Source of the DNA: Powellomyces hirtus
Lineage: Eukaryota; Chytridiomycota; Chytridiomycetes; Spizellomycetales; Powellomycetaceae
Direction of reading: 5' to 3'
DNA length: 64,000 nucleotides
Assembly: GCA_025526995.1 (NCBI GenBank)
Contig: JAHLKG010000001.1
Coordinates: forward strand, 1,116,001 to 1,180,000
Part shown: positions 22,884 through 43,519 of the stretch, in pieces
Layout: every line of letters begins with the position of its first letter
How positions within the stretch are numbered: position 1 is the first letter of the stretch
Translations under genes and position numbers: made by a program
Notes under the pieces: model-generated
What the model was told of the DNA's origin: nothing
Seen by the model: only the letters and a program-made list of their open reading frames with translations
Database searches by the model: none

Positions 22884-25800
22884 CTAGGCGCTCCTATTCA
22901 AAACCCATCGTCTAGCGTTCCAGAACATTTTAATCCAAGGCGCCCAATCCGCACCATCCTTCTGCGGTACAATGTCGCTATTATCCCACGTGTTTGCAGA
23001 CTTTCGCACAACGCGCTCGGGATGCGGCATGATGGCCAGCACCCGGCCATTGCTCGCAGTCACGCCTGTGATACCCTGTGGGGATCCGTTCGGGTTGGCA
23101 GGGTACTGCGTCGCTACTTCTCCCTTGTTTGTGACGAAGCGAGCTGCAACGATGCTGGTGTCAATGTTCCCCGACGCAAACTCGGCACGGCCTTCACCGT
23201 GGGCTACAGCGATGGGAATGCGAGATCCCTTCATTCCATCGAAGAAAAGAGAATCCGAATTTGTGATTTCAACGACCGCGACACGGGCTTCAAACTGCTC
23301 TGACTTGTTGCGGACAAATCGAGGCCAGTTCTCTGTTCCTGGGATGATGGGCGCCAAAGCAGCAAGCATTTGGCACCCGTTGCAGATACCAATCGTGAAC
23401 GTGTCGTTTCGGTTGAAGTAGTTCTGGAACAAGGTCCGTGCATCGGTGTTCAACAAGATGGATTTCGCCCAGCCAGCGCCGGCGCCGAGCACGTCGCCGT
23501 ATGAGAAGCCGCCCGGGCACGCCAATCCCACAAACTCGTCGAGATTCGGAATGCTCTTGCTGAGAATGTCGGTCATGTGAACGTCGACGGCAGTAAAGCC
23601 CGCAGAGTGGAATGCAAAGGCCATTTCGCCGTAGCTGTTAACTCCTTGTTCGCGGAGAATCGCGACCTTGGGACGCACAGCCGATGGCGACTTGATGAGT
23701 GGCGCAATTTCGGTCTGCTCCCTGTCGAGATCGAACGACAGAGCGGTAGCAAGTCCCGGGTCGCTCCGGTCCAGCAGTGCATCGTATTCTGATTGCGCAG
23801 ATTCCGGGTCATCGCGGAGGCTCTGAATTTTGTAAGAGGTCTCGGCCCAACGCCTGTGGTATGCAGTGCGGGAACCTTGCAGACGGACCGTATTGCCCCA
23901 ACGGAACACAATGTCATCAGAGCCGGGAGCGCCAACCGCGGCGATCGTGTGAAGATGCTTATGCGCTGGGTAGCCGGCCTCCTCAAACACGGCTTGCACA
24001 GCAGCCACGTCGCTTTCGCGGACCTGAATAACAGCTCCAAGTTCTTCATTGAAGATTGCGGCTACTGGGTCTGCGCCGGCAAGGGGAGATAGATCGACAT
24101 CAACGCCGACATGCCCGGCAAAGCACATCTCTGCTACCGTCGCAAATAATCCTCCATCTGAACGGTCATGGTAGGCGAGGACTAGTCCGTTGGTGCGTGC
24201 CTTCTGTATAGCTGTCCAGAATGCGGCGACCGCGCGGACGTCTTCAACATCAGGTGTTTCGGTTCCGACTTGGTTGTACACCTGCGCGAGACAAGATCCG
24301 CCCAGACGCTCTTTGCCGCAACCAAGGTCAATCAGCATGAGCACTGTTGCACCGTGGTCTGTGCGGATCTGTGGCGTCAACGTTCTTCGAATATCATCAA
24401 CAGGTCCATAAGCAGTGATTATAAGACTGAGGGGAGATGTCACTGATTTAGCTTTCCCATCCGCATCTGTCCACTTTTGCTTCATCGACATGGAATCCTT
24501 GCCCACCGGAATAGTAAGGCCTAGTTTCGGGCATAGGTCAAGCCCGACGGCTTGGACAGCAGAGTACAAAGCTGCTCCTTCACCGGGGTGGTCGGCAGCA
24601 GACATCCAGTTGGCGCTCAAACGCACTGTTTCGAGCTTTTCGACGTTGGCGGCCGCAAGGTTCGTCAAAGATTCAGCAACGGCCATGCGCGCAGATGCTG
24701 CAGCGTTGACTAGGGCAGCGGGAGTGCGCTCACCCATAGCCATAGCCTGTCCCGTGAATCCTTCGTAGCTGGAGGCAATCACAGCCACGTCAGCCACGGG
24801 CACCTGCCAAGGTCCAACCATTTGATCGCGCGCCACCAAACCAGTCACAGTTCGGTCTCCGATGGTGATCAGGAACCCCTTGGACGCTACGGTAGGGAGG
24901 GAGAGGATGCGGTCGGCCGCGTCTTCCAAACCAGCGCCAAGTGGCATCTGGAACGCGGGTCGGTCGGGTACAAGCGTTTGCGCAGTGCGATGCATTTTCG
25001 GTGGTTTGCCAAATAAAGTTGACATGGGAAGATCGATGGGGGTGGTGCCCAACAGCGAGTCAACCAATTTAAGCGTCTTCTCCACGGTAGCCACTCCAAC
25101 GACGGCATAAGGACATCTCTCGCGTTTGCAGATATCCTCAAAACGGCTCAAATCTTTGGGGTCCACCGCAAGCACGTATCTTTCCTGAGACTCATTGCAC
25201 CAGATCTCCATGGGACTCATTCGCGGGTCATCGCACGGTACATCACGAAGCTGGAATATCGCACCCAGGTCCGAGTCATGAACGATTTCCGGAAGTGCGT
25301 TGGAGAGACCACCGGCGCCAACGTCATGAATGGCAACCACTGGGGTATCATCTCCGTACGATGTACAGGTGTCGATCACTTGTTGCGCACGTCGCTGCAT
25401 CTCCGGGTTTTCTCGCTGCACGGACGCAAAGTCGAGCTCCGCGGAACTCTGCCCAGAACTCATTGACGAGGCAGCACCACCGCCAAGACCGATCAACATA
25501 GAGGGTCCTCCCAGCACGACCAGTTTTGCTCCGGGTTGAATCTTCTTCTTAAACACGTGCATGGGACGAACGGAACCCATTCCCCCTGCAATCATGATGG
25601 GCTTGTGATATCCACGCAACTCCGTCCCGCCGTCCGCAGTAAACACTCGGTCTTCAAAGGTGCGGAAATAACCTGTCAAGCTTGGTCTTCCAAACTCGTT
25701 GTTGAAGGCAGCTCCACCGAGAGGCGCCTCAATCATGATGTCCAGTGGGGAAGCAATGTGGCCTGGGCGGCCGGGATCTTCAGTAGTCTCCCACGGCTGC

Positions 25801-26948
25801 ACAAATTCGGGGATTCGCAGGTTCGAGACGGTGAAGCCTGTGAGGCCAGCTTTTGGTTTGGAACCTTGTCCGACAGCACCCTCGTCGCGGATCTCGCCTC
25901 CAGATCCTGTTGATGCACCGGGAAATGGTGAGACTGCGGTTGGGTGATTGTGCGTCTCTACTTTAGCAAGGGTGTGCAGCAGCTCCACATTTGTGCCGTA
26001 TGTAAAATTGTTGGTTGGATCTGCGGCAAAACGCATTCCGCGGGGTCCGGCAAGTACAGCAGCATTGTCCGAATATGCCGAGATAACGTGCTCGGGATGA
26101 AGCTTGTACGTGTTTTTGATCATTGCGAAGAGTGACTCATCCTTGTCCTCGCCGTCGATGGTCCAAGACGCGCCAAAAATCTTGTGTCGGCAGTGCTCAG
26201 AGTTGACTTGCGCAAACATCATGAGTTCGACATCCGTTGGGTTTCGCGGAGGAGCACCGTTCTGCGGGTGAAGGAAGGCCTGCACGAGATATTCGATCTC
26301 GTCATCAGCCAGGGCGAGACCCCAAGTTTTGTTGGCTTCTGCCAGCACGGCGCGCGGGTTTCCGCCAGGTGTAGCAGCCGCAGCAAGAAGATCAACAGAT
26401 TTTAGCGGTGCGGGAGAGCCAGTGTTGAAAAGAAGCGTTTCCTTTGGAATCTCGCAGAGAATTGTTTGTGTCATGCGATCATGAATGCAGTTTGCGAAGA
26501 GGATGCTGTCGACAACACTTGACGCCGAGTCCGTGGAGTAAAAGTACGCGGTGCCGCGCTCGATGCGAGTGACGAGCGGCCCGAGGCCACATGTGCGAGC
26601 AATGTCTGTAGCCTTGGATGACCAAGGGGAGATTGTTCCGTGACGCGGGAGGACCAGCGCCATGTTCGGGATGGGGGACTGCGAGGAACTCACGAGAGCC
26701 TCCAGTTTTTCTGCGTCGGCCGGAGAAGGGGTGGGCTGCAACGACCCATACCGCAAGAGCGATTCGAGAGTAGTTTTGGCATCGCGCAAATTGTCGGGAG
26801 AGAGCGAGTCGAAGAGCGGCGTCGTTTGTACAAAATGCACATGGAATGCCGCAAGAGCCGTGATGCGAGGTTCCACCTTTTGCAGTGAGGCCAAGACTTG
26901 TCCTTGCCTCTGCTTCGAGAGCGCGTGTGAGCCGGGAAGGACGAGCAT
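22884..26948 (-). CDS. ADE6: Phosphoribosylformylglycinamidine (FGAM) synthase
   Basis: Catalyses step 4 of de novo purine synthesis: FGAR + glutamine + ATP to FGAM. One uninterrupted frame of 1,354 residues, the usual length for the large eukaryotic single-chain enzyme. N-terminal domain and linker, then two AIRS-type ATP-binding halves ([88 protein letters not shown]). The C-terminal class I glutaminase has the Cys nucleophile in [12 protein letters not shown], the [11 protein letters not shown] block and the His/Glu of [11 protein letters not shown]. The first Met (26948) precedes the domain directly. Unlike most neighbours it has no intron. Confidence 0.95.
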
Positions 26949-27864
26949 CTCTGATATTGGAGTTCAGGGGAAGGTGCCTGCCGACTTTGCCCAAGATGGA
27001 GTGCAAAACCTTGGGGAAAAAAAAAAAGAAAACAGGACACGAGCAGCCGCCATGCGTGTTGATGAAATCAGTCGGGGGCTGTCTGCCCGGATCGAATTCA
27101 TCGCGTGGCCTGGTTTTGGCATGGCTGTTTGGGTTGCAGTCGGAGATAAAAGCCACAATCGCAGACAATCTCTCCCTCATCACGGGACACTCACGCGACC
27201 GTCACGGGGAGAGGGGGATAAATGTGGGATGAATGCGATCGGCCGATCTGCGAAGGCTTGGACAAGCGAGAACCAGGTTGGTGGGTCCGTCCAGCACACG
27301 GGAAGCGCAGATCCGTCAGCTCCAATACTGACGCGTTTGGGCACGTGACGATGAGCGGACAGAACTGGTGGATCGACGCCGGGGGCTTTCTTTTCTGTTT
27401 TGGAGAGAGGGCCCTCCGAGGCGTATCCGTGTGGGTTCCATGCGTTTGGCGCTTGGCCTCTTTGAATCCGCCGCTCTGGTTGCCTGCGCCGATCCAACAC
27501 GCCGTCACTCTCTCTGCCTGATTTCGGGCGTCGATCTCTCGCCTTCCATTCTGCTCTTCCCAAATATCCATTCCATATTACTATCTGGTGTGCTGGCTTC
27601 TTCTTCCTTCCTCCGTTTCTCTTTTATTCTCTCCCTCTCTACAATCTCTTCTCTTCCGGTTTATCTCGCTGTGCTGTACTCTGGTCGTCTTGGGAACTTT
27701 TCTTTCGCCTGAATCCATACCCCGCAAACCTACCCCGTCGGCAACCCACAACACTTCCTCCCGCAGATCCACTCGAACGAACCGTGCTGATTTTTCTTGC
27801 TTGCGGCCACGCTCGTCTTGTTCCTCTCTTCTGAAATTCCAGCCCAACCAATTAATCGCCTCAG
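26949..27864. other. Long divergent intergenic region
   Basis: Separates ADE6 (minus) and the C2H2 gene (plus). It holds a poly-A run at 27017-27029, and a pyrimidine-rich stretch 27590-27850 that looks like the 5' leader of the zinc-finger gene. No further gene is supported. Confidence 0.4.
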
Positions 27865-29697: not shown

Positions 29698-30586
29698 GCT
29701 CCTTTCCGATAAATCTTCAGGACTGCAGGAGTCTCGCTCTCTCTCTCCGGTTTTTGGACAATGCGATTTCATGCTTTCTTTTGTCTGTAAATTTTCTTTG
29801 GTTCTTGATTTGCCTGTCTGCTCGACTTGCGCACGTCTTCATCATCATGGCTCTTGAGAGCGCATTATATCCCAAAGTCCCCAATTTTGTATCTTGGGGC
29901 CATAGCATTATCAATATTATTCCTCTTTTTGACTGCTTGCAGAGCACCATTGGCTCGTGCTGCACTGAAAACAATCTGAGTGGTTTAAACTACCTGAACG
30001 GCAAGCTTCTTTGCGGCTGATTAGACCCTCAGCCCAGTAAAACCTTGCTCAAAAAGGCCGCTACTCCTCTACCAATGTCCGAGTGCCTTATGAACTATAC
30101 CAGTACATGATCATTGAAGGACTGTGAAGGATGCAACTTGGATAACATCTGATACTTTCATTGGAATATTGAGGACTTCGAGCTCAACGCGTCTTCCGAA
30201 CCTGACCCTTTGGGATTGAGTGCACAGCCACCCATGCACAGCCACTGGCAAGCACACCAAAGAGGACTCTCCCTCAAGATACTGTGAAGGTATCTTTCAC
30301 ATCGCGACTAAGCGCCACATTTTGTGGCCTGGTGTGTGGCCTCGATTAATGTGGCCGAGCACTTAAATACCTGATTTCCAAGCCGATTTTGTCAATTTCA
30401 AGCCAAACAAGCCAATGGAAAACACGTGTTCCTGTACACGTCAGCACTCGAGCTGCCGAATCTCAGCTGGCAGGACCTCACCTGTCAAATCCCATTCTCC
30501 CCCCAACTCATCTTACACCATCTGTCACCTCTCATTTTAATAACACAATCCAGAACGAGCACCGCCAACACCAACACCACAACGAG
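29698..30586. other. Non-coding stretch at the left border of the Crypton-like locus
   Basis: No convincing ORF. A TTAAATACC-like box near 30363 and the splice donor at 30587 suggest that the promoter and 5' leader of the next gene lie here. The element boundary must fall inside, but Cryptons lack terminal repeats, so I cannot place it. Confidence 0.35.
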
Positions 30587-30669
30587 GTATGTATGGGACT
30601 GGTTAAATGGTGTATTTGAAGAGAACAGTACAATTTGCATTGAAAAACGAACTGACATGCGTCCCGCAG
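30587..30669 (+). repeat. Inverted-repeat intron in a 5' leader
   Basis: Intron GTATGT..GCAG of 83 bases. Its inside runs GGGACTGGTTAAATGGTG ... ATGCGTCCC (30595-30665), so the ends can pair, bringing donor and acceptor close. Same unit as in the other introns of this locus. Confidence 0.6.
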
Positions 30670-30700
30670 TTTTTTTGTTTTTTTTTGTAAGTAGGGCATT

Positions 30701-31584
30701 ATGGGAACCGTAGCAAAGTTGTTTAACATAGGCGGAGGAGGTGGTGGTGGAAGTGGTGGTGGTGGAAGGAGAGGATTGTCGCAACCACCCGAAGAGGGAC
30801 ACTATCTCAAAGGTTTTGCAGCCACTCAAGCTCGCATGGCGGAAGAAGAACTGCAAGCAACCGTTGCGCTCCTGCGATACCTTGCCAGAGCCTGCCCCCC
30901 TCAGATCTTACAGCGGAAGGGGGATGCCTGGTACTGGTGGCCCATGACAGACATCAATCACATCAATACCTTGGCACATCAACTCGAGTCTGGTGTGGCG
31001 GCTGGCTGGGCTCTTGTTGGCAATGAAGCAAGGAACTACGCTGGAGGGGAGCGTGTTAGAGGAATATGTGTACGCCAGGAGCTCTTGGGTATGTATGGAC
31101 ACATTAAACATTGTCTTTGTGCATGTAAACAAAATTGGCAATCAAAAACACCATTTACTGCGTCTGTGTTTGCTGGACACAGTAAATGGTTTTTTCGCAT
31201 GCAATCGGAGTAGCTATATGCTTTAATGTTATTTAATATGTCCACTCACTTCTACCTCTATTTATTGTTGTAGGCGGCGACCTCAAGTTTCATCCTGTCG
31301 ATCGCGACCATCATGCAATGTGGCACCTGCCAAAAGTCCTTAGAACTGCTGAGGTGGACTGCAGCCGTGGCTCACGGTGCTCCAATGCGAGAGCCAGAGA
31401 AAACCCTGCCTGGGAGAGAGAGTTCTTTCCTTCAATGGTCCCAACAGCTACTCGTGCAACTCATGCAAGAATGGGCAAGGTTTTGACCAGAGAATCAATG
31501 AATCCCCAAGCTGACAAGATCACGATCGAGAATGTGGGGGATGAGCAGGAGGATCAGGAGGAGGAGGAGGACGAGGACGAGTAG
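30701..31584 (+). CDS. Unknown Crypton-locus protein with acidic tail
   Basis: Two exons (30701-31088, 31274-31584) join in phase to 232 residues. The start Met follows a leader intron. Residues 11-24 are a Gly/Ser tract. A helical region (MAEEELQATVALLRYLARACPPQIL) is followed by DAWYWWPMTDINHINTLAHQL, then a region with CSRGSRCSNARARENPAW. The last 20 residues are almost all Glu/Asp/Gln (DEQEDQEEEEDEDE). No family recognised. It lies about 95 bases upstream of, and on the same strand as, the H3-like gene; both contain the same inverted-repeat introns, so I take them as one locus. Acidic tails are common in histone chaperones, but this link is speculation. Confidence 0.6.
31097..31243 (+). 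repeat. Double inverted-repeat unit inside the intron 31089-31273
   Basis: Outer ends GGACACATTAAA and TTTAATATGTCC. In the middle, ACCATTTACTGCGTC is followed after 10 bases by GGACACAGTAAATGG. So two units of about 70 bases lie head to tail, each bounded by GGAC..GTCC-type ends. Confidence 0.7.
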
Positions 31585-31678
31585 TGGCAGAGGGGAGGGG
31601 AGGGGTTTGATTGTTTTGCAATATATTAGTATCAGTATTCATTCATGTTCCGTTCCATTTCACACACACACACAGGCA

Positions 31679-32760
31679 ATGCCACCAAAGAAGCAACCAC
31701 CAAAGAGGAAAAGGTCTCCCAGTCCCACAGGCTCAGACAAAGACCTTTAGACTGTTATGCAGACGAAAGACTGGACCGTGGGGATTCCCCCCAAGTCTAC
31801 ACTCAGCAAGCTTGGGAGATTTGCAGCACCACCTCCGCCACAGAGAAACGTTAAATACCGAGCAGGGAAACTGGCACAGAAAGAGATCGAGTGAGTTATG
31901 AGTATTGGACACAAGTGATGCTTTCTTCTTGTCCGCGCCCATGCTTTGCGGTCAAAAACATCTTCTAATTTGTCCGAGTACCGCTGGACAAATTAGATGG
32001 TGTTTTTGAATGCGTTTCGCCATTCTAAACCCTTTCTGATGATTTATTGCGTCTTCCATCCAATGCATCTTCCTTCAATGCCAGCTATTACGCCTCCAAA
32101 GTGGGCTCGTTGATCCCTAAGGCTCTATTTCGACAATGCGTCCGCAGGATCACTGTGCCAGTGTGGACGGACGAGTTGAAGGCAAAAGGAAAGCTGCGTT
32201 GGAATGCTAGGGGCATGGATGTACTGCAAGAAGGAGCGGAGCTCTTTCTGGCAAGTTTTTTGGCAGACTCACTCTTGGTGTCTCGCCATAGCATGCGATC
32301 CACCGTCACAAAGTACGACGTAAGTGCATGTCTGATTATTAAGACGCATTAAATCAGTCATTTGAACGATTGGTCCATCCGCTGGACGCAAAAACTCAAT
32401 TTACTGTGTCTTCATTATATTGCAGGTTCAGGTTGCGGCAGCTTTGGCCGGGCGCCTGGATCCTGAATGCGTGAGGGAGTTGCGGCGACTGCAGATCCGT
32501 GATGAGGCCGCCAGGGAGAAGGCGGCTTCTCTAAAAAGGAGGAAGGCAAAGGCAAAGGGGAAGGGGAAGGGAAGGGGAAGGGGAAGGGGAAGACAACGGG
32601 GACGGAGTCGGAGTCAGAGTCAGATTCTTCATCCGAATTTGAGCATGACCTGCAAAAGCGGGACGACGAGGAAGACGACTCCAATCCACACGGCGACTTT
32701 GCGGGTGCTGGGCCTTTGGGTTCCGGTGGTATGCCTGGTGTATCCTATGCAGATGTATAG
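31679..32760 (+). CDS. Divergent histone H3 / CENP-A-like protein in the Crypton-like locus
   Basis: Exons 31679-31890, 32085-32319 and 32426 onward. The histone-fold core aligns with H3 end to end: KYRAGKLAQKEI (H3 RYRPGTVALREI), SLIPKALFRQCVRRI (LLIRKLPFQRLVREI), KLRWNARGMDVLQEGAELFLASFLAD (alpha-2), then SLLVSRHSMRSTVTKYDVQVAAALAGR (alpha-3). The loop after alpha-1 is longer than in canonical H3, as in CENP-A types. The N-tail begins MPPKKQPPKRKR, but TAG at 31748 interrupts it; Met 31757 could start an intact core. After the fold comes a Lys/Gly tract coded by AAGGGG repeats. One 5-base repeat unit (32567-32571) shifts the frame away from an acidic tail ending at TAG 32758; unshifted, the frame ends at 32809. 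Either slight decay or sequence error. The family call is strong; centromere function is inference. Confidence 0.72.
31907..32053 (+). repeat. Double inverted-repeat unit in H3-like intron 1
   Basis: Within intron 31891-32084. CTTCTAATTTGTCC, a 10-base spacer, then GGACAAATTAGATGGTG form a near-perfect inverted pair. Outer ends are GGACACAAGTG and TTTATTGCGTC. Confidence 0.7.
32343..32410 (+). repeat. Inverted-repeat unit in H3-like intron 2
   Basis: Within intron 32320-32425. Ends GACGCATTAAAT and ATTTACTGTGTC pair. A second short GGTCC/GGACG pair sits in the centre. Confidence 0.6.
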
Positions 32761-32824
32761 TTTTGCGCGGGGGGGGGGGGGGGTTAGGGTTTTTGTTCCT
32801 ATTAGTTAGCATAGAGGTCCTATA

Positions 32825-32974
32825 GGACGCATTAAATAGCACATATGAAAGCAGCTTTTCAACACGAGCACAAAAAAAACATTTGACGCGTCCATACAGG
32901 ATGCTGGATGCAATAAATAGTTTATTTGGAGGTCAACTCTATCTGCCAGCGCAAAGAACACGTATAAAGTGTCC
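32825..32974. repeat. Double inverted-repeat unit between the convergent genes
   Basis: GGACGCATTAAAT ... GACGCGTCC, 12 bases, then GGATGCAATAAAT ... ATAAAGTGTCC. It lies between the stop of the H3-like gene and the stop of the recombinase, so the unit is not confined to introns. Confidence 0.6.
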
Positions 32975-33445
32975 AAGTCACTAGCTAATCTGCAGCAGGT
33001 GCTATAGGAGGACAACTAAGTTCTATATGATGACACCTTGTCTTGGGTGGTGGCGATATGTGTGCCCTGTACTTATCCAGAGTCAATTCAAGCCCTTCTC
33101 TCTCCATGTCCATCATCTCGGCAATCTCAGATCCTGTGCATCCCGACGCTCTCATTCGCTTGTCGATTCCATCATATATCACCTTGCGCTTGCTCCAGTA
33201 TTTCCGTTCGGTTGAACTATGCAATCGCTACATTGCTTTGTGTGCCACCTCTAAGCTACGTACGGAAGGATGTCGTCCAACAACCGTCCCCATCTCATCA
33301 AGAATTGGCTGCCCTTCTTCATATTCCAACCAAACTTGAAGCACTGTCTGGTGATGCTGATAAAGCTCATATGGCGGCCATTTGGCAGACTCGGAGCCCT
33401 GTGTCTGTTGTTGTTGTTGTGTCTCTTCTGTGTACAGCTGCTGTT

Positions 33446-33536
33446 CTGTGTGGTTTCTGGACGGGATAAATGATGTATTTCAAATTAGAGCGCAGCTTGG
33501 GAGCGAAAAAGATCAGTTAACCTGTCCAACGCTTAC
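33446..33536 (-). repeat. Recombinase intron 5, inverted-repeat unit
   Basis: 91-base intron. Minus-strand ends GGACAGGTTAACT and ATTTATCCCGTCC lie just inside the splice sites. Confidence 0.65.
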
Positions 33537-33814
33537 CTAGTAGTCGTACGCAACAGGGGTTCGTCGCCCTCTTCTTCTGACATTGTTGACGTTGGAAAGA
33601 GTAATCAAGAGGGGGGGGCATGCTTCAGTTGTGACATAGTAGACTGTAACCGGCGTGCTGCTGGAGATTGACAGATGTCGGATACCGCTGTTACCATCTT
33701 GTGCACCGCAACAGAGGTGGCTTCTTGCCAAATGCCTAGTGGGTTACAATATGTCTGAAAGGTCCCTCGCATCTTCTCCGCTATACGGCTGGCATCCTTC
33801 CGGGTATGTCTGAT

Positions 33815-33896
33815 CTCTGGACAAAGTAAATCGTGTATTTCAACCCTAAATGCGGCTCAGAACTGAAAAAGATGCTTTAACGTGTCCTATACATAC
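33815..33896 (-). repeat. Recombinase intron 4, inverted-repeat unit
   Basis: 82-base intron. Ends GGACACGTTAAAG and GATTTACTTTGTCC on the minus strand. Confidence 0.65.
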
Positions 33897-34324
33897 CTTC
33901 AATGATTTCTTTACCCAGTCTGATAGACATGTCGTTTTGTTTGAGATTCCGCTCAATTCAAAGGAGAGTGCTTGATTACCGGTGGTAATCGTTGATGCAA
34001 TTTGTGGAACAACATATTGAAGAGTCGCCAGGGTTGGATTGACGACGCTGCGCATCCTGTCCAAGAGCTCTGTCTTATAGAGAAGGAATGCTGGCGATCG
34101 GAACAGTTGATGGGTCCATATGGCATGCAATGGAAACTTGTCAATCAAGACTGCAGCATCCTGAATGACAACACGGCACAATTTCTTCAACAGAATTGCA
34201 AAGCCTCGTCCAGCAATGTCCGTAACTTGTGGATTACCCAATGCTTCATCAACAAATGGAAGCACAGCAGCTTCTAGTTCTTCAGGGACATCAATACATG
34301 CGCGGGGTAAGAAGAACCCACCAC

Positions 34325-34407
34325 CTAAAAGATGGACGTGTTAGAAAGTGTTTTTTGCATTCCTTTTATGGATGTGACACAATTAATCAATTTAATGCGT
34401 CCATTAC
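34325..34407 (-). repeat. Recombinase intron 3, inverted-repeat unit
   Basis: 83-base intron. Ends GGACGCATTAAAT and TTCTAACACGTCC on the minus strand. Confidence 0.7.
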
Positions 34408-34704
34408 CTTGTATCGGCCATTGACCTAAAGCGTGCATAGATTGTTTAGGGAGCTTCAAATTGTAAGACATATCCGTCGCTGTTTGTTCCCAGCCTCCCA
34501 TTCTGTTAACGTCACTTCCATCCACCCCTCGAGATGTTGCTGTACGGACTGCAACGCCATGTGGGAGGTGCGTCACTTTTGATACATTGATGTTGCAAGC
34601 CTTGAAAGCCCGCTGATAGATTTGCCGATGAGATTGATATGACATGCCATTGGGATCATCGTCCTCGCACTCGTCTTCTCCCTCTCCCGCACTATCAACA
34701 TCTA

Positions 34705-34859
34705 CTATTGGAGGCATTAGATAGCAGCATTGCATGAAAGAGAATGAGAGGCATTCAAAAACATTGTCCAGTGTAGATGGATGCAGTAAATGGTGTTTTT
34801 GACTGCAAGCTTGGCTTATGTTCACAAAGACGATATCTAACATGTCCCGTTTTACTTAC
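34705..34859 (-). repeat. Recombinase intron 2, double inverted-repeat unit
   Basis: 155-base intron with two units: GGACATGTTAGAT ... CATTTACTGCATCC, 9 bases, then GGACAATGTTTTTG ... TCTAATGCCTCC. Confidence 0.6.
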
Positions 34860-35256
34860 ATGTGTCTGCATGTTTCCGCTTTCTCGACTTCGCTCGCTTT
34901 GTATCTCTCTTCATGAAGTATGTGTTGTACCATGACTCGTTATCAGTGAAGTCTGGCAGTTGTTCATTCGTCTTGTGATATTGGTAGAAAAGGAAGAACG
35001 CGGCATGGCCATTAGAGCATAAGGCAGCCTCTTTATGGCGCATGCAACCCACCATTTCCTTACGGCCTACTTTGTTCATTTTCCCTTTGCGTGAAATGGT
35101 TAACATAGCGAATGCTGGCGTTGGTCCCTCCTCCTTTGGTAGATCAGAGCTGAACATATTTGAGAGCTGAAGCAGTCTGATACTCTGTCCACGCCCCATA
35201 GTCGAATGTTGAAGAAGAAAGCATGCAGCATTCCGCAAGCCCATCTCTGGTTGTGC

Positions 35257-35340
35257 CTACGGATATTGGACACATTAGAATGTCTTTTTGCATAGATATC
35301 ATGGATCATGGTTGAAATACTTGATTTAATATGTCCCTAC
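35257..35340 (-). repeat. Recombinase intron 1, inverted-repeat unit
   Basis: 84-base intron. Ends GGACATATTAAAT and TTCTAATGTGTCC sit 4 bases after the donor and 11 before the exon. Confidence 0.7.
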
Positions 35341-35921
35341 CTGTCCCCACCAATGCGCAACTAGGGCACTCTGTTCTGCTTAGCTGTACATATCAATGAG
35401 TGTTCCGACGCCACGGTCTTCAAATGCTTTTAACTCTCGCTGAAGTACTCCATGGGTGTAGGCTTTGACCATGTCGGAGAGTGTCTTTGTACGTGGGCAG
35501 TTATCTTTTGTATTCATGTTGAGTTGACATTGATAAGACCACAAGTCAACGGTTGCCTTGATAAAATGCTCGATGCTTGCCTTGCTGTATGGTTTGTTCA
35601 TTCCTTTTTCATCTTTGCGGCTTGAACCTCGCGGCATAACAGCTTTATTCAACCATAAAAGAACTTTGTCTGGCGCGACTCGCTTGTCCATGCCTAGGGA
35701 GTGACACCAATCTTTGTACCACTTTGCGCACCATTCGTATGCATTCCGAGTGGCCACAGAGCGTGCATTGTGGTTGGCAACAAGTTGATTCAAATTGTTC
35801 GCATGCAGGGCAATGAGATTTGCAATGTCCTGGTTGAGTGCGGTGTCATGGAGCGCTGCCGCAGCAGCAGGTGGTAGGTTGCTCAAGTTCATTGCACTCC
35901 TTCTTTCTTTCCACGACTGAG

Positions 35922-36150
35922 GGACGCAGTAAAGGTCGATTCCGAGGTGAGCGAGTTGAAAACAGTCCAAAAAAGCAAGAAAGACTGTCCAGTGGTCCAC
36001 AGTGGAAGGAGGCAGACATAGTAAAGATTGATTTGGGGGCAAGCGAGTTGGAAACAGTCCAAAGAAGCAAGAAAGACTGTCCAGTGGCCCCAGTGGTCCA
36101 CAGCGGAAGGAGACGGACGCAGTAAAGGTCGATTCCGAGGCGAGCGAGTT
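35922..36150. repeat. Three-unit array upstream of the recombinase, third unit split by Copia-1
   Basis: Units of 69 bp, GGACGCAGTAAAG ... GACTGTCC, at 35922-35990 and 36014-36082. The third starts at 36115, is cut at 36150 by Copia-1 and resumes at 42339-42371. Spacers contain AGTGGTCCACAG. The array begins 30 bp upstream of the recombinase Met, so it lies in its promoter or leader. Confidence 0.75.
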
Positions 36151-36402
36151 TGTTGGTCTGAGAGTATCTGGGTAGATAGTTGAGGAAGCTTTCAGGGTAG
36201 TTGACTGGGCAAAACAACGAAGTACGCTCTATTGGAGAAAAAGAGAAAAGTCCCCTTGATATATTCAGTATGTAAGGAAAACTACTTATATCGGAGTTGA
36301 TCACGTGGTTTGCACGTGATCGTGTGACTCATTGTAGTGACGTAGCATACGCCCTGCAATGGCGCAGTTGTGACACGATGACAGAGTCTGTACACACTAA
36401 CA
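36151..36402 (-). repeat. Copia-1 3' LTR
   Basis: 252 bp, TG..CA ends. Preceded on the minus strand by the polypurine tract GAGTGGGGG at 36403-36411. Contains CACGTG palindromes near 36302. Confidence 0.9.
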
Positions 36403-36565
36403 CCCCCACTCAGACCTGTCAGTCTGTCAGTGAGAGAGTTGCTCTATCTACTTTTACTACACACACCCACGCGCACACCCCACACACCCCATTTATTACA
36501 TTTATAATATGAGGAATGGCGAGGGTACGTTGATAAGATCCGCGCAAATGAGGCATAAGCTCTAA

Positions 36566-36778
36566 CTATGTGCCGGTGTAGTTGTCAGGTTCGGGCAAGG
36601 CGAAGATGACAGCGAGAAAGACGGCACCGCCGGCAACGGCTCCTGCGGCGACCACGGCTCCGGCTGTGCCGTTGGCAGTGGTGCCCTCTGCGCCAGTGGA
36701 ATCTGCACCCGCTGTGGGGTTGTCCCAAGCGGAGAATTGAACGATGTCGGCAGCGTATGCCCGACAGTTCCACTGCAA
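36566..36778 (-). CDS. Small ORF in the Copia-1 3' module, doubtful
   Basis: 70 residues. Thr/Gly/Ala-rich then a hydrophobic segment (AVVAAGAVAGGAVFLAVIFAL), resembling the C-terminal membrane end of a surface protein. It lies downstream of the pol stop region. It may be a captured fragment or chance. Confidence 0.2.
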   Translation of the reverse strand: MQWNCRAYAADIVQFSAWDNPTAGADSTGAEGTTANGTAGAVVAAGAVAGGAVFLAVIFALPEPDNYTGT

Positions 36779-37205
36779 GGACCGTCAAGAGGTCCTGGAA
36801 TGCCACATCAAACAAGCGAAAGACCAGTTGAAGGACCGGTCGAGGTCTGGTACGCCTCTTGGTCGCGCACGGGCGACCAGGATGTTGGATGGATTGAGAT
36901 CCGTGCTAGAGGACCGGCGGAGCTGGAAGACGGCTGTTGGGAAGGGCAAGGGTAAAGCCCAGGTGAAGAAGAAGACTGCAGACAAGAAGTCGGCAGCGGA
37001 GGTGAAGAGGATGTGGGACATCCTGGAGCGGGAGGCTCCGTATAATGATGAGGAAGAGGAGGAGGAGGAGGGGGAAGCCGAGGAGTTGGAGGGATCACCG
37101 ATCTCTCCAAGCCGACGCTCACCCTCAAGCGATGAGGATGATGGAGGAGGGGCAGGTCCATCCTCCTGGGGGGGCATAGCTTCGGGTTCCGCAATTGCAG
37201 TGTAG
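36744..37205 (+). CDS. Antisense ORF in the 3' region of Copia-1
   Basis: 153-residue frame on the strand opposite to gag-pol, between the RNase H region and the 3' LTR. Composition is protein-like: a charged helix (RQEVLECHIKQAKDQLKDR), a Lys-rich centre (GKGKGKAQVKKKTADKK), EVKRMWDILEREAPYN, then an acidic run and a Ser/Pro tail. A TTTATAATATG box lies near 36505. The facing minus frame is Pro-rich and looks like a shadow. I recognise no family. It could be a captured host gene piece. Confidence 0.4.
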   Translation: MSAAYARQFHCKDRQEVLECHIKQAKDQLKDRSRSGTPLGRARATRMLDGLRSVLEDRRSWKTAVGKGKGKAQVKKKTADKKSAAEVKRMWDILEREAPYNDEEEEEEEGEAEELEGSPISPSRRSPSSDEDDGGGAGPSSWGGIASGSAIAV

Positions 37206-40200
37206 ATGCCAAGGTAAGCCAGCGTTGTGAGTAATTCTCCTGATATTCAGCAAGTAATACTTGGGCTTGGTGTGCTTCCGTAAGCGCGCCCGCATTGCAT
37301 ATTCGTTCATCAAATATATGAGTCCCATTTGTAATCTTCAGGACAGTGTTTCGATGTTTGACAGCTGGGAAAGGCTTCGTAAAGATGTCTGCCAATTGAT
37401 CTTCTGTATTGGTGTCAATGATCTTGATAATTTGCTTTGCAAACGAATCGCGCATAGCATGGTACCGAACGTCAATGTGTTTGGTGCATTGGTTGATAGC
37501 CTTAGACTGAATCAAGGCCCCGGCGCTCTGATTATTGACATGGAGAGGGACCGGTCGAGATTTGAAATCCGGTTGAGGTCCCAAAACTTCCGCCAAGAGT
37601 TGGCGTAGCCATTTGGTTTCGTCGTGGCCGGTACTGGCAGCTATGTACTCTGCTTCGGTCGTACTTTGGGCGGTACACTTCTGCTTGCTGCTTTTCCACA
37701 GAACAGGAAACCCATTGTAAAGGGCCAAGATACCCGTAGTGGACGTACGGTCGGTGAGTTCTCCTGCATAATCCACATCCGTGAAAAAGCGTAGGCCACG
37801 CGGATCATTTCGTTCGGATGTAAACTTGAGGGCGTAATCGCGGGTACCCTTCAAATAGCGGAAAATGCGCTTAACATTGTTCCAGTCGGAGTTGGTAGTT
37901 GCGGCCACGCGGCGCGCAACGTAACCGACTGCAGTGGCGATATCCCATCGCCATGTGATGGAGGCCCAAGTGAGGACCCCCACTGCTTCCTGATACATTT
38001 TGAGATTTGTGAATGGTGTCGAATCCTCTGGGTGTTGGTTACGCGCTGACACAGCGTACGGGGTGGAGACAGGATGGCAGTCGCTCATGCCGAATTGTTC
38101 AAGAGCGTCGTCGATGTACTTGACATTTGAGATTTTGAGGGTACGAACAGGGGAGTCAAAGTCATTTTTGTAGACGAGACCAAGGTGACTGGTTACGCAA
38201 CCTTGTTCCGTAAACTTGAACTGCGAATGTAGCTCCATCTTGTTGTTCGCCAGAATCTCCGGATCCTTCGCTGCAATAAGCAGATCGTCGACGAAGACGA
38301 GAATAAGGACCAAGTTGTTGTTTGACGGAGGTGTACCGTTGTCTGTTGCGTACTTAAAAAAGATACACGGGCATACAGAAACCGCTTCGTAGCTGAGCTT
38401 TAACAGTGAAGTCTTCAAGGTCTCATACCAAAGAAGAGGTGATTGCTTCAGGCCGTAGAGAGCTTTCAGTAGCTTCAGGACCCAATCGCCTTTGGGGTGA
38501 TCCGGATCTTCGAATCCCTCAAACTGCTCGATATTGATATCCTTATCAATATCACTGTTAAGGAAGGCGGTAACAGCGTCCATACTGTGGATGTCCAGCC
38601 CGTGCTGAACACAATACGCCAAGAAAAGGCGTAGCGCTGTGAATGGTAGCGTCGGTGAGTATGTATCATCAAAGTCGCAACCAGGTTGTTGAGAGAAGCC
38701 TTGAGCCACCGCTCTGGCTTTGAACTTGTTAAAGGTGCCATCGGGATTGACCTTTGTTCGAAAGACCCATGTTGTTCCGATCACGCGTTTGTTGCGTGGA
38801 CGCTTGGTGAGCTCCCATGTACCGTTGTCGACTAGGGATTGGTACTCAATGCGTGCAGCCTTGAGAAATTCCTCCTTCTGAGGGGTTTTCATCGCTTGCT
38901 TCCATGTCATGGCGTCTCTGTTGATCATTGCTTGAGTCCGCGTGCAGGCGGCGTATGCAGCGATGGGGTCATTTCGTTGTGTGCCGACATCGTACGCGGC
39001 TACTCGATTCTCCCAGTCATCCAATGCGGTAGTATCAAGTAGTGAAAGTCGGGACTCCCAAGTAGGTTCTTAATATCCCTCCCACTTAACCAAGTACTCT
39101 TTTGTGTGCACCTTACTGCGGCGCTCGTCGATAATCGCCTCCACGGTGTATTCAACGTCATCCTCCTGACTCTCCTCATCTAGAAGGTCAAGATGTGCTG
39201 GATCCTGCTGATATTTGGGTTCGAGTCCCAAGTCTTCTTTGAAGATCACGTCTCGTGACACTTCGACCTTGTCAGTAACAGGATCCCAAACCAGATACCC
39301 CTTGGTACCTGTGGGTTGAGCATAGCCTACCAAGTAAGCCTTCTTTGCTCGATTCCCCATTTTATCTTGTCCTTTGCTTGTTAGAACGGAATACGTTACG
39401 CAACCGATACGCCGAAGATGGGCAACATCAGGACGCCGGCCAAATAGGATTTCATGCGGCGTCTTCTTGTTGATGCGGTTGTACGTGAGGGAATAGATGT
39501 AACCAGCTGCTACCAGTAGAGCAGGCCAGAACCTTTGGGGTAGTTTTGTATCCGTGAAGGTGGCGCGGACCCTGTCCAGCACCGTGCAATGCCATCATTC
39601 GGCAATCCCGTTTTGCTGACTCGAATAGGCCGCGGACTTTTGATGAGTGATACCATTTTTCAATAGGTACTCTAGAACCTCGCCAAAGTATTCAGTGCCT
39701 CGATCCGTTTGTAGAATCTTGATTTGTCGGTCATTCTGTTTCTCAATCCAAGCCTTGTAGATGAGAAACTTTTCGAGTATGACTGCTGAATCCTTTGAAG
39801 GAATAGGGAAAACAGTCACGTATCTGGATGTGTGTTCAATGAACCTCAGCAAATAGCGTGATCCTTCGTAACCAGGGATGCGAAATGGTCCCTGTAGGTC
39901 TGAATGAATCAGCTCACAGATCTCCCTGGTTTCAACGTTACCAAGGGAGAATGGAAGACAAGCAGCTTTTCCTAGCATGCAGGCTTCACAATGTTTGAAG
40001 TCACTTAGATCCCCCACTACGGACCAACTGTCCGTAACCGATGCCATCTTCTCCAGGACGTGTTTGCCAACGTGTCCAAGACAAGCATGAGCGAGTGTAG
40101 GAGAGACTTCAACCGTGCATACTTCTGAATCTGACGACAGACTTTCAGACAGTAGCGTACCTTGCAGGTAATACGCGTTGTTGCGGCGTACGCCATTGGC

Positions 40201-41415
40201 GATGTCTTTGCCGTCTCGCGTGAAAATGACGTCTCCATTCGATTTGAAGAGCACGTCAACGCCTTGATCGTTGCATTTTGCTACCGATACGAGATCTCGT
40301 CTTAATCCTGGCACATGCAGGACTCCGCCCAACTTGAGCAGATTCGGATAGTTGTTAATTTCTACTCGTACCGTACCTCGAACTGTAGAGGGTAGTGATG
40401 TTTTGTCAGCATGCATAACAGCTCTGACATCACTGTACACGGTTGAGTGATCCAAGGTCTCTTTGTGAGGTGTCATGTGGTCCGTAGCGCCAGAGTCGAT
40501 GAGGGCTTCATATGGTTGTTCTTGGCAAACCCAGACATGTAATGCTTCCACAGCATTTGTGCTAACAGCACCATCAGACGACTGCTTCGTCTTGTTCTTC
40601 TCCATCTCGGATTTGAACTTCTTTAACACTTGACACTCCTGTGTCCGGTGTTTAGGGTCTCCACAGGCCCAACAACCCGACTTGTGTGGTTGGCCTTTGT
40701 TTGATGGAGTGGATTCCTGGTCCTTCTTGCCAGTCGTTGACTTCTCCCCGTGGTTCTTGCCACCCTTTGGTTTCTTAGAGGCGTCAGTGTATGCGGCACC
40801 TGGTCGCGTATCCGTTGTGGTCCCACTAGGTTTCTTAGCCATGTTGGCGGCGATCCTGGATGTAGCGGCCTGTAAACTGCTCAAATCAGTTATGTTTTCT
40901 TCATTAGCCTGAACCAAGGCCGCAAGGTCTGGTGTTAGCGCGTTAATGAAGTAATCCTGAAGGACGTAATCCGGTGTCTTCGGCAGAGAAAATGCCAGCA
41001 TGTTGAATTGAGTGATGTACTCATCCATGCGGCCTTTGGGACGCAATTCCCGTAATTTCTGCAGCGAATCTCTTGTGTGGTTTCGTGGCGCAAAACGCGC
41101 CAGAAGGGTGGACCTAAGACCGGTGTTGGTTCTGCCTGAATCAATGTCTTCAAAGTCATGCCAAGTCGTAATTTTGTTCCTTTTACTTGGGGAGAGCGAC
41201 TGCCACCAAGTGTATGCCCATCCTGTGAGTTTCGTAGGCACAAAATCTACAAGAAACTCGGGCGGAACCATTTCGCACTTCACAACTGTCTCAATCTTGT
41301 CGAAGAACCTTCGAAGTTTGACCATATTGGATTCTCCATTGTAGGACCCAATATCTTTCAGCGTTCCATCCACGAAAGCCTTCGCACCTCGACTGTCGAC
41401 GATTTTGGTCGTCAC
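37206..41415 (-). pseudogene. Copia-1 Gag-Pol with internal chromodomain, two in-frame stops
   Basis: One frame from 41415 leftward, broken by TGA at 39595 and TAA at 39070. Order: Retrotrans_gag-type Gag (LTGWAYTWWQSLSP, LLARFAPRNHTRDSLQ), CCHC knuckle CWACGDPKHRTQEC, protease ALIDSGATDHMT, GAG-pre-integrase HHCC ending CEACMLGK, integrase IHSDLQGPF and QTDRGTEYFG. A chromodomain (YTVEAIIDERRS, EYLVKWEGY, stop, EPTWESRLSLLD) covers about 39150-39000. Then RT with FVDDLLIAAKD and RNase H with STTEAEYIAAS. Earlier Gag sequence starts at 42077 inside the primer site and reaches this frame through a shift or an intron (donor near 41580). The first stop is probably Arg CGA to TGA. Confidence 0.85.
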
Positions 41416-42069
41416 GCTGTGTATGCTCGATGTCGGTGACGTAGGGCGTCGTTCGATTGGAGAACGTTGGTGTTCCTGTTGAGTTCCAATCTCCTGATTG
41501 TACTCTGTCCACGGTTAAGCGAACCCGTCGTTGCAAGTGGGTGATGGTGTGCGTACGCACCGTTGCGCCGTACGTACCTGAGAGTTGATCAGAATGTTCA
41601 CATCCTGATCCATGCGCCATTTCATTTGGAGCATTTCCGTTAGTTGGGCTAGAGAATTCTCAAGCCGATCTATCCTATCGGGCGGACATGCACTGTGTTC
41701 GCAGATTCCCCACTTGGGAATGCCGCTGGAGTACTGTAGTTGAGCGTTCTGTGATCATCCATACTGCTTGATAGGGGACGGGTTTTGACCTTGCCATCAC
41801 GTCGGTCGATGTTTCGGATACGCCCTTCCAATGCGTCATCGCCCTCGTTGGCGTCAACACTCAAAGGGGTTGGCTCTGCCAGTGTATTGTTACCGGCAGA
41901 GTTCCCTCCATTGCTTGGTGATGTCCATTCACCAGGCACTCGTGCGCTTTTCTTAGCGGCACGATCTACGGCTTGTTGTAGCGTATTGGACCCTGGGGTC
42001 CGTCGACCCGCTAGGCGTCTTAACATACTACGAGTGTACTGGGGGCTTGTTTTGTTGCCTACCATTTCA

Positions 42070-42081
42070 GGGCTCATAACC
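42070..42081 (-). promoter_or_regulatory. Copia-1 primer-binding site (initiator tRNA-Met anticodon arm)
   Basis: GGTTATGAGCCC on the minus strand directly follows the 5' LTR. It is the complement of GGGCUCAUAACC, the anticodon stem-loop of initiator tRNA-Met, as used by Drosophila copia. Confidence 0.8.
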
Positions 42082-42333
42082 TGTTGGTCTGAGAGTATCT
42101 GGGTAGATAGTTGAGGAAGCTTTCAGGGTAGTTGACTGGGCAAAACAACGAAGTACGCTCTATTGGAGAAAAAGGGAAAAGTCCCCTCAATGTATTCAGT
42201 ATGTAAGGAAAACTACTTATATTGGAGTTGATCTCGTGGTTTGCACGTGATTGCGTGACTCATCGTAGTGGCGTAGCATACGCCCTGCAATGGCGCAGTT
42301 GTGACACAATGACAGAGTCTGTACACGCTAACA
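42082..42333 (-). repeat. Copia-1 5' LTR
   Basis: 252 bp, same ends as the 3' LTR, followed by the second GAGTT target copy. Confidence 0.9.
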
Positions 42334-42371
42334 GAGTTGGAAGCAGTCCAAAGAAGCAAGAAAGACTGTCC

Positions 42372-43519
42372 CAATGGTTGGTTAAAAATGTGGGCAAATG
42401 CAATTGCAAAAATGCAATGGCAATGGCGAAATGTCGTGGGGGTGGGCTCAAGTACGAGATAAATACAGCCTACCTTATGTAAGAGACATTCCAATGGAGT
42501 CCAACCAAGTATCAGTTAATTGAGGCCACAGTGAGTGCTGTAAGCAGTGAAATACCTACGGTATTTGAGCTTTTCGTAGATAAATGTGTGGTTGACTATC
42601 TAGTGCAGATACCTGGGTGGCGGTGAGCCCCACTAGGTATTTGGTTATGTAAGCTTATGTAAGGTCACGTGTATTTGTGGCCTTGGCTAGGCAATGTGGC
42701 TTGCGACGTGGCCAAGGTGACCGAAAGTTTAGGTATTGTTATTTACGCAGTACTCTGTGCACTCATCTGCCCTGTCACATTAGAAAAGTCGTAGCAGTGT
42801 ATTGAGATACAACCTGAGCCTGCATTGTGAAATGGCCATAAAGGCATACATATATACATATCTTTTTCGACTAGTCAAGAACATAAAGGCAGACGCGCCT
42901 ATAAGCGATTACCTTAATTGTTCAAAAGTGACCCTCAAACTACCCCGCAGGTTCACAACTGCCAAGAGATCATCTCCACGTTGCTATAGATAAAAACCAA
43001 TCTCTTATATAAGGAGAGGGAAACAGATCCCCCTTTTGAGATACAGGGACAATCTATCACGTGATTGCCTTTCCCTATAAAAAATCAAAGACTTTGACAC
43101 CTTGTTTCCTTCCCTTTTCTTGTCACATTTCTAAATCGGAACCCTCTATTGTGACTCTTGCTTGAATAGAACTCCTAGTTCAATCCTTCCGCTTGGAAAC
43201 TCTGGCACCTCACATGCATGGCCTTGATCTGTGTCTTGGCTTCACAATATTGGAATACTAAGGATTATCTTTTCAATGATCATCTTCTCAACCTTAACCT
43301 AGATTAAGGATGGCATGTGAAAAATGTCACCATGTGAACAGGACGGTAGATATAGCAGTTTTCATCATCAAACCCAACTCTAAAATTCAAAACTTGAATA
43401 ACCTACAAACGTCTCATCTATGTGCATACTTCATTTAGAGGTTAAACAATCCATTACAGTTCTTTGCAACACTGTAGACAAAATCTTACCGATATAGTTA
43501 TCAACAGACTGGTTGAATT
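42372..43519. other. AT-rich non-coding region
   Basis: No ORF of note. The start continues the Crypton flank. The rest is AT-rich sequence with no repeat I can pair inside the window. Confidence 0.4.

Follow-up and report, generated by a model that had tools for sequence, protein, structure and literature searches.

Several described systems pair transposons, or proteins derived from them, with histones of the H3 type. CryptonF elements have short (4-6-bp) terminal direct repeats and encode a YR (tyrosine recombinase) domain and a GCR1_C domain (Kojima and Jurka 2011, PMC3212892), and the yeast centromere protein Cbf2/Ndc10 is reported to derive from such an element (PMC3212892) and has been proposed to contact the Cse4 nucleosome (PMC5771398). 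Transposon-borne H3-like genes have been published for hAT elements of Dothideomycetes (PMC3538342, PMC6710886); here and below, statements about published work refer to excerpts of the papers cited. We analyzed a 64,000-nucleotide stretch of DNA (the window; bases 1,116,001-1,180,000 of contig C1) from a genome of 29.26 Mb in 60 contigs, probably that of a flagellate fungus, as fits the presence of an IFT57 gene (E 7.4e-16, over the cut-off). The window contains a transposon that, on balance, probably belongs to a CryptonF-type family of ~6.2-6.3 kb encoding an H3-type histone variant as a gene of its own. Comparison of its copies, all within this single host genome, demonstrates a histone fold that is transmitted jointly with the recombinase and with a further open reading frame (ORF-A), lies between defined ends and is under purifying selection.

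The histone gene is divided into three exons (Table 1); for all gene models, splicing was deduced from reading frames and from GT..AG borders conserved across copies. An earlier sequence-only reading had claimed a histone fold at this locus, and profile searches agree: the spliced fold of the window copy matches Pfam Histone PF00125 with E 1.2e-16, its sister copy on C22 with 9.1e-17, and the alignment to H3 spans alpha-N through alpha-3. Among the best 60 of 176 matches to Protein Data Bank (PDB) sequences, the first is Giardia H3 at 52.7 bits, followed by S. pombe Cnp1 (47), a CENP-A/H3 chimera (46.7) and an H3.3 mutant (46), with Cse4 and canonical H3 at about 39-42 bits. The predicted longer loop after alpha-1 is also present, as 24 residues separate the R-x-I and LQE motifs versus 17 in H3, a difference of 7. 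The N-tail has no ARTKQTARKS-like stretch, and in the C22 protein the fold is followed by a Lys/Gly tract and then an acidic extension. All three features had been proposed for the window gene and they hold for the C22 copy, but the window gene itself is damaged: a stop codon interrupts the N-tail, and the Lys/Gly tract is shifted when compared with the sister copies, which leaves the acidic extension out of frame. A structure model of exon 2 alone (mean pLDDT 51) was too poor for use.

Signature residues bring this protein close to centromeric H3 (CenH3). It has Trp at the position of H3 F84 and Pro at that of R63 (Pro also stands there in the alignment rows for the host cenH3 and Arabidopsis), and it keeps H113, R116, R72, R83 and T118 of H3; we take the retained and changed positions to be functionally relevant. 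Over shared columns the fold is 33% identical to host H3 and 38% identical to the host centromere-type H3 on C6, and it is 29-33% identical to reference H3 and CenH3 folds. The best tree (11 rows) places the element histone with all cenH3 rows on a long branch with weak support (54/58). Because the tree fails to separate the alternatives, we call the protein CenH3-like, not CenH3, a label that rests on the signature residues; the earlier description as CENP-A-like survives for these residues but not as a tree grouping. Descent from a centromere-type H3 appears likely from Trp84, Pro63 and the long loop 1. Host H3 or CenH3 was considered as the source of the signal and discarded, as the host H3 loci (C24, C1:651 kb and C6:934 kb) and the host CenH3-like gene (C6:1.245 Mb) are separate. 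The host also has an Scm3 gene, on C7.

The histone is repeated in the genome together with its neighbors. A genome-wide search with PF00125 gave 20 matches, one of them at window positions 32086-32328, and the histone query gave 21, of which 16 fall at seven loci of the element family (one each on C1, C22, C3 and C17, two on C30, and a C25 fragment) and 5 in other histone genes. The recombinase query found five close copies (C1, C3, C22 and two on C30) and, on C27, a distant copy with 34% identity; ORF-A occurs at six loci, these same five and C25. At all five close recombinase copies, ORF-A and the histone lie on the same contig in identical order and orientation. The three genes are adjacent on C1 and C22 and have a few kb more between them at the second C30 locus; on C3 and at the first C30 locus the histone and recombinase are ~27-32 kb apart (the intervening stretch was read in part). 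The 10 kb read at C17 show no more than a partial histone, and the C25 fragment comprises just ORF-A and the first exon of the histone. The proposal that the histone is cargo of the element, not the host H3, is borne out by this arrangement and by the low identity to host H3; far from being a single-copy host gene, it occupies seven loci apart from the host H3 and CenH3-type genes. On C27 the histone query found no match, and the recombinase copy there is incomplete in the locus read, running into a retroelement. No close relatives appeared in viral contigs scanned with the histone and recombinase exon 2, nor in prokaryote contigs scanned with recombinase exon 2 only.

Selection was evaluated as omega (Nei-Gojobori) between copies, leaving out stop and gap codons; the pairs are not independent. 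For the histone fold omega is 0.22-0.66 (15 pairs), with 11 of the 15 at 0.26-0.37, and the five pairs that include the distant C17 histone give 0.26-0.32 with upper bounds of 0.49-0.61. Recombinase values are 0.44-0.87 (10 pairs, four intervals wholly below 1), and of the 10 pairs available for both genes, 9 give the histone the lower point estimate, although the intervals overlap. For histone exon 1 alone, the interval is wholly below 1 in 4 of 14 pairs with a value. These between-copy comparisons establish purifying selection on the histone fold, with a constraint at least equal to that on the recombinase. ORF-A gives 0.66-1.72 (14 pairs with a value) and every interval includes 1, as expected if it is either unconstrained by this test or changing under pressure.

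The recombinase gene is convergent with the histone gene, and their last open frames end ~225 bp apart, close to the ~200 bp first estimated. NDC10_II is matched across recombinase exons 2-4, over the cut-off in all five copies (2e-13 for exon 2 alone), and GCR1_C in the last exon, above the cut-off at 2.6e-13 when scored on the C22 copy, in agreement with the original assignment as a Crypton-type recombinase. An H-x-x-R stretch, a candidate for part of the catalytic R-H-R-Y set, is found in the four sister recombinases and is altered in the window copy. ORF-A has no Pfam family match. A known histone chaperone was considered for it and rejected, given the lack of a Pfam family and PDB matches of E 0.048 or worse, mainly to its Gly-rich start; the structure model of ORF-A exon 1 (mean pLDDT 42) was too poor for use.

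Blastn of the window against the other copies places the left boundary at 30277-30281 everywhere except at the C25 fragment. The left-end core at C3 reads GACTG, and flanks differ among copies. The C22 copy is 6242 bp long and runs from TACTGTGAAGG to GTTTAGGTACTG. The TACTG-like core at both ends forms a short terminal direct repeat, whose exact length of 3-5 bp is uncertain, and no terminal inverted repeats were seen by eye at the element ends. The second C30 copy begins immediately after the right end of another copy, a head-to-tail junction such as might result from a recombinase that forms circles; in the first C30 copy, other sequence disrupts the right end. In the distant Crypton (C27:10500-12362), with its 34% identical recombinase, the right terminal 148 bp are 92% identical to those of the element, and the two may be families using the same ends. 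At C19:479278-479322 and C3:587621-587653 there are isolated left ends of 33-45 bp with none of the remaining element, which are possible footprints.

The peculiar intron repeats first noticed in the histone and recombinase genes are indeed common to both: by eye, all nine inferred introns carry a GGAC..TTAAA form near the 5' end and the complement form near the 3' end, with weaker boxes in the histone introns. Six overlapping motif classes have 3, 4, 5, 1, 6 and 6 matches in the window, all within the element. Genome-wide, a 24-base form of the motif has 19 matches, 18 in element copies and 1 between the halves of the C3 copy, and a second form has 24, of which 18 are in element copies, 4 on C8 and 2 single, versus 5 for a reversed-pattern control. 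The introns seem to form an introner-like family that is almost exclusive to a single transposon family; one explanation is that the element derives from another species. Two of the four C8 matches were read and lie in an array of Copia-type retroelements (C8:342853-375831) with a 5377-bp period between matches. This array was rejected as a relative of the element, the unit read being a Copia-type retroelement with no similarity beyond the intron box. Boxes of the intron type also occur within the tandem repeat (35922-36150 and 42334-42738), perhaps as a binding or regulatory site, and at 32818-32925, in the noncoding gap that separates the 3' ends of the two convergent genes, histone and recombinase.

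Table 1. Element features, given as positions in the window; exons and introns are inferred.
Feature	Position	Strand	Remarks
Whole Crypton-type element	30280..42738	.	similarity starts at 30277-30281; right end beyond nested LTR retroelement
Left terminal core TACTG	30280..30284	.	identical left end at C1, C22, C30 (2 copies)
ORF-A, 232 aa	30701..31584	+	exons 30701-31088, 31274-31584; Gly-rich start, acidic end; open in window
Histone exon 1	31679..31890	+	N-tail plus most of alpha-N; window copy has a stop codon in the tail
Histone exon 2	32085..32319	+	alpha-1, long loop 1, alpha-2; PF00125 and alignment
Histone exon 3	32426..32760	+	alpha-3, Lys/Gly tract, acidic extension; frame shifted in window copy
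Crypton recombinase, six exons	32985..35892	-	broken in window copy
Recombinase exons 1-6	35341-35892, 34860-35256, 34408-34704, 33897-34324, 33537-33809, 32985-33456	-	inferred
Introns, + strand	30587-30669 (upstream of ORF-A), 31089-31273, 31891-32084, 32320-32425	+	inverted-repeat boxes
Introns, - strand	33457-33536, 33810-33896, 34325-34407, 34705-34859, 35257-35340	-	inverted-repeat boxes
Tandem repeat, ~100-bp units	35922..36150	.	with GGACGCAGTAAA-type box; upstream of recombinase start
Nested Copia-type LTR retroelement	36151..42333	-	LTRs 36151-36402 and 42082-42333; separate from the Crypton into which it is inserted
Right terminal core TATTG	42734..42738	.	TACTG at C22 and C3

The retroelement nested in the window copy has 252-bp long terminal repeats (LTRs) that are 95% identical, a 5-bp duplication (GAGTT) and frames matching RVT_2 and the integrase core; LTR sequence related to it also breaks the C3 and C30 copies. 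Elsewhere in the window, the left half contains host genes, among them one for FGAR amidotransferase (22887-26963), and the right third (42739-64000) holds repeated long open frames that are retroelement-like in appearance.

Several observations weigh against a Crypton with a working histone gene of its own. All five recombinase copies have lesions in the exons compared: both copies on C30 contain an insertion, and stops occur in the second of these and in C1, C22 and C3. The histone frame is intact at only one of the seven loci, C22, where it encodes 262 aa; apart from the damaged window copy, a stop interrupts exon 2 on C3, insertions disrupt both copies on C30, and only part of the gene is present on C17 and C25. 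These lesions weaken the case for present-day activity. Five of the 15 fold intervals for omega, from pairs that are not independent, reach 1 (C1-C22, C22-C3, C22-C30a, C22-C30b and C30a-C30b). Within the fold, H3 R63 and R69 are changed, as is D123 in C22, and tree tests rejected neither a placement of the element histone with host cenH3 (p 0.278) nor one with H3 (p 0.315).

Chromatin is a means by which hosts act against transposons, and the element might make chromatin of its own that packages or marks its DNA. The element histone would pair with host H4, and the resulting nucleosomes would form preferentially on element DNA, for example on new copies or an excised circle. Because the tail lacks the H3 sequence around K4, K9 and K27, such chromatin would be unable to bear those silencing marks, and the unmarked element DNA would stay transcribable and open to the recombinase. 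Taken on its own, this mechanism is tentative and falls somewhat short of an even bet.

The alternative that survives best, although we regard it as unlikely, is that a histone gene was picked up accidentally by a Crypton and amplified without benefit to the element, a transduplication as proposed for hAT elements. Reports of H3 capture by hAT transposons exist, including one (PMC6710886) in which every extra copy is inactivated, and most element histone copies here carry lesions as well. However, a fold omega well below 1, with a constraint at least equal to that on the recombinase, speaks against a mere passenger, as does the addition of a C-terminal extension to the histone. The identity of just 33-38% to host H3-type proteins also counts against it, as it implies a histone that has been long in the element or long apart from the host gene.

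More doubtful still is a role in partitioning, in which the CenH3-like histone and the Ndc10-family recombinase would build centromere-like chromatin on an excised circle or on insertions and so promote segregation or biased inheritance. The CenH3 marks and the weak tree grouping point this way, the host has Scm3 and a CenH3-like gene of its own, and the CryptonF-derived yeast Cbf2/Ndc10 (PMC3212892) has its proposed contact with the Cse4 nucleosome (PMC5771398). Yet GCR1_C and NDC10_II are general Crypton domains, and the insertions are at varied contig positions. The corollary is just as doubtful: a single mobile element would supply the two components of a point-centromere-like system, a CryptonF protein of the type domesticated as yeast Ndc10 and a CenH3-like histone, serving its segregation or drive, and CBF3-type centromeres would retain a trace of the partitioning module of a selfish element.

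It is very unlikely that the variant is incorporated into host nucleosomes and relaxes silencing across the genome, aiding the element indirectly. A bracovirus H4 does enter host nucleosomes and perturb host gene activity (PMC9145170), and the long basic and acidic extension would be unusual on a nucleosome, but a histone doing widespread harm would be costly to an element that is passed on together with its host. A host histone gene lying beside a Crypton by coincidence has nothing but adjacency in its favor and is refuted for this genome, where all five close recombinase copies show one and the same gene order and orientation within shared ends, leaving it a negligible share of our confidence.

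If a transposon family does maintain a constrained H3-type variant of its own, chromatin-building becomes a transposon function, and together with the published hAT cases this would suggest that unrelated transposons recruited H3-type histones independently. Yeast Ndc10 has a reported CryptonF origin and works beside a CenH3 nucleosome, so the pairing of a Crypton recombinase with a CenH3-like histone also suggests a testable route to how sequence-defined centromeres arose. The literature searched, with subscription papers and most preprints outside it, yielded no Crypton with a histone gene and no transposon case of a CenH3-like histone. What appears to be new here is the Crypton host and the CenH3-like character of the histone, as transposon-borne H3 is already known in hAT elements.

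Compared with described systems, the element resembles CryptonF (PMC3212892) in its tyrosine recombinase with GCR1_C, its lack of long terminal repeats and its short direct end repeats, whereas the extra proteins reported for CryptonF are a DDE transposase or a C48 peptidase and those here are an H3-type histone and ORF-A. Introners (PMC9860276) share with it the presence, in the introns of one gene set, of a repeated inverted-repeat sequence, but they are spread over host genes, whereas the element's introns are nearly confined to one transposon family. Like CenH3/CENP-A (Cnp1, Cse4), the element histone has Trp at H3 F84, a longer loop 1 and a divergent N-tail; unlike them, it is transposon-borne, coexists with a separate host CenH3-like gene and has a long Lys/Gly and acidic C-terminal extension. 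Ndc10/CBF3 with Cse4 (PMC5771398) sets a Crypton-derived protein beside centromeric H3, much as the gene pair here combines a Crypton recombinase with a CenH3-like histone; there they are host centromere machinery, whereas here both genes reside in one mobile element. The hAT element with H3L of Pyrenophora tritici-repentis (Manning 2013, PMC3538342) also combines an H3-like gene with a further open reading frame, but H3L is described as neither H3 nor CenH3, whereas the element histone has CenH3-like marks. It differs as well from the hAT H3 of Pseudocercospora and relatives, which derives from host H3 (PMC6710886). The hAT elements have an unrelated transposase and inverted ends, in contrast to the element described here, which has a Crypton recombinase and a histone whose constraint has been measured.
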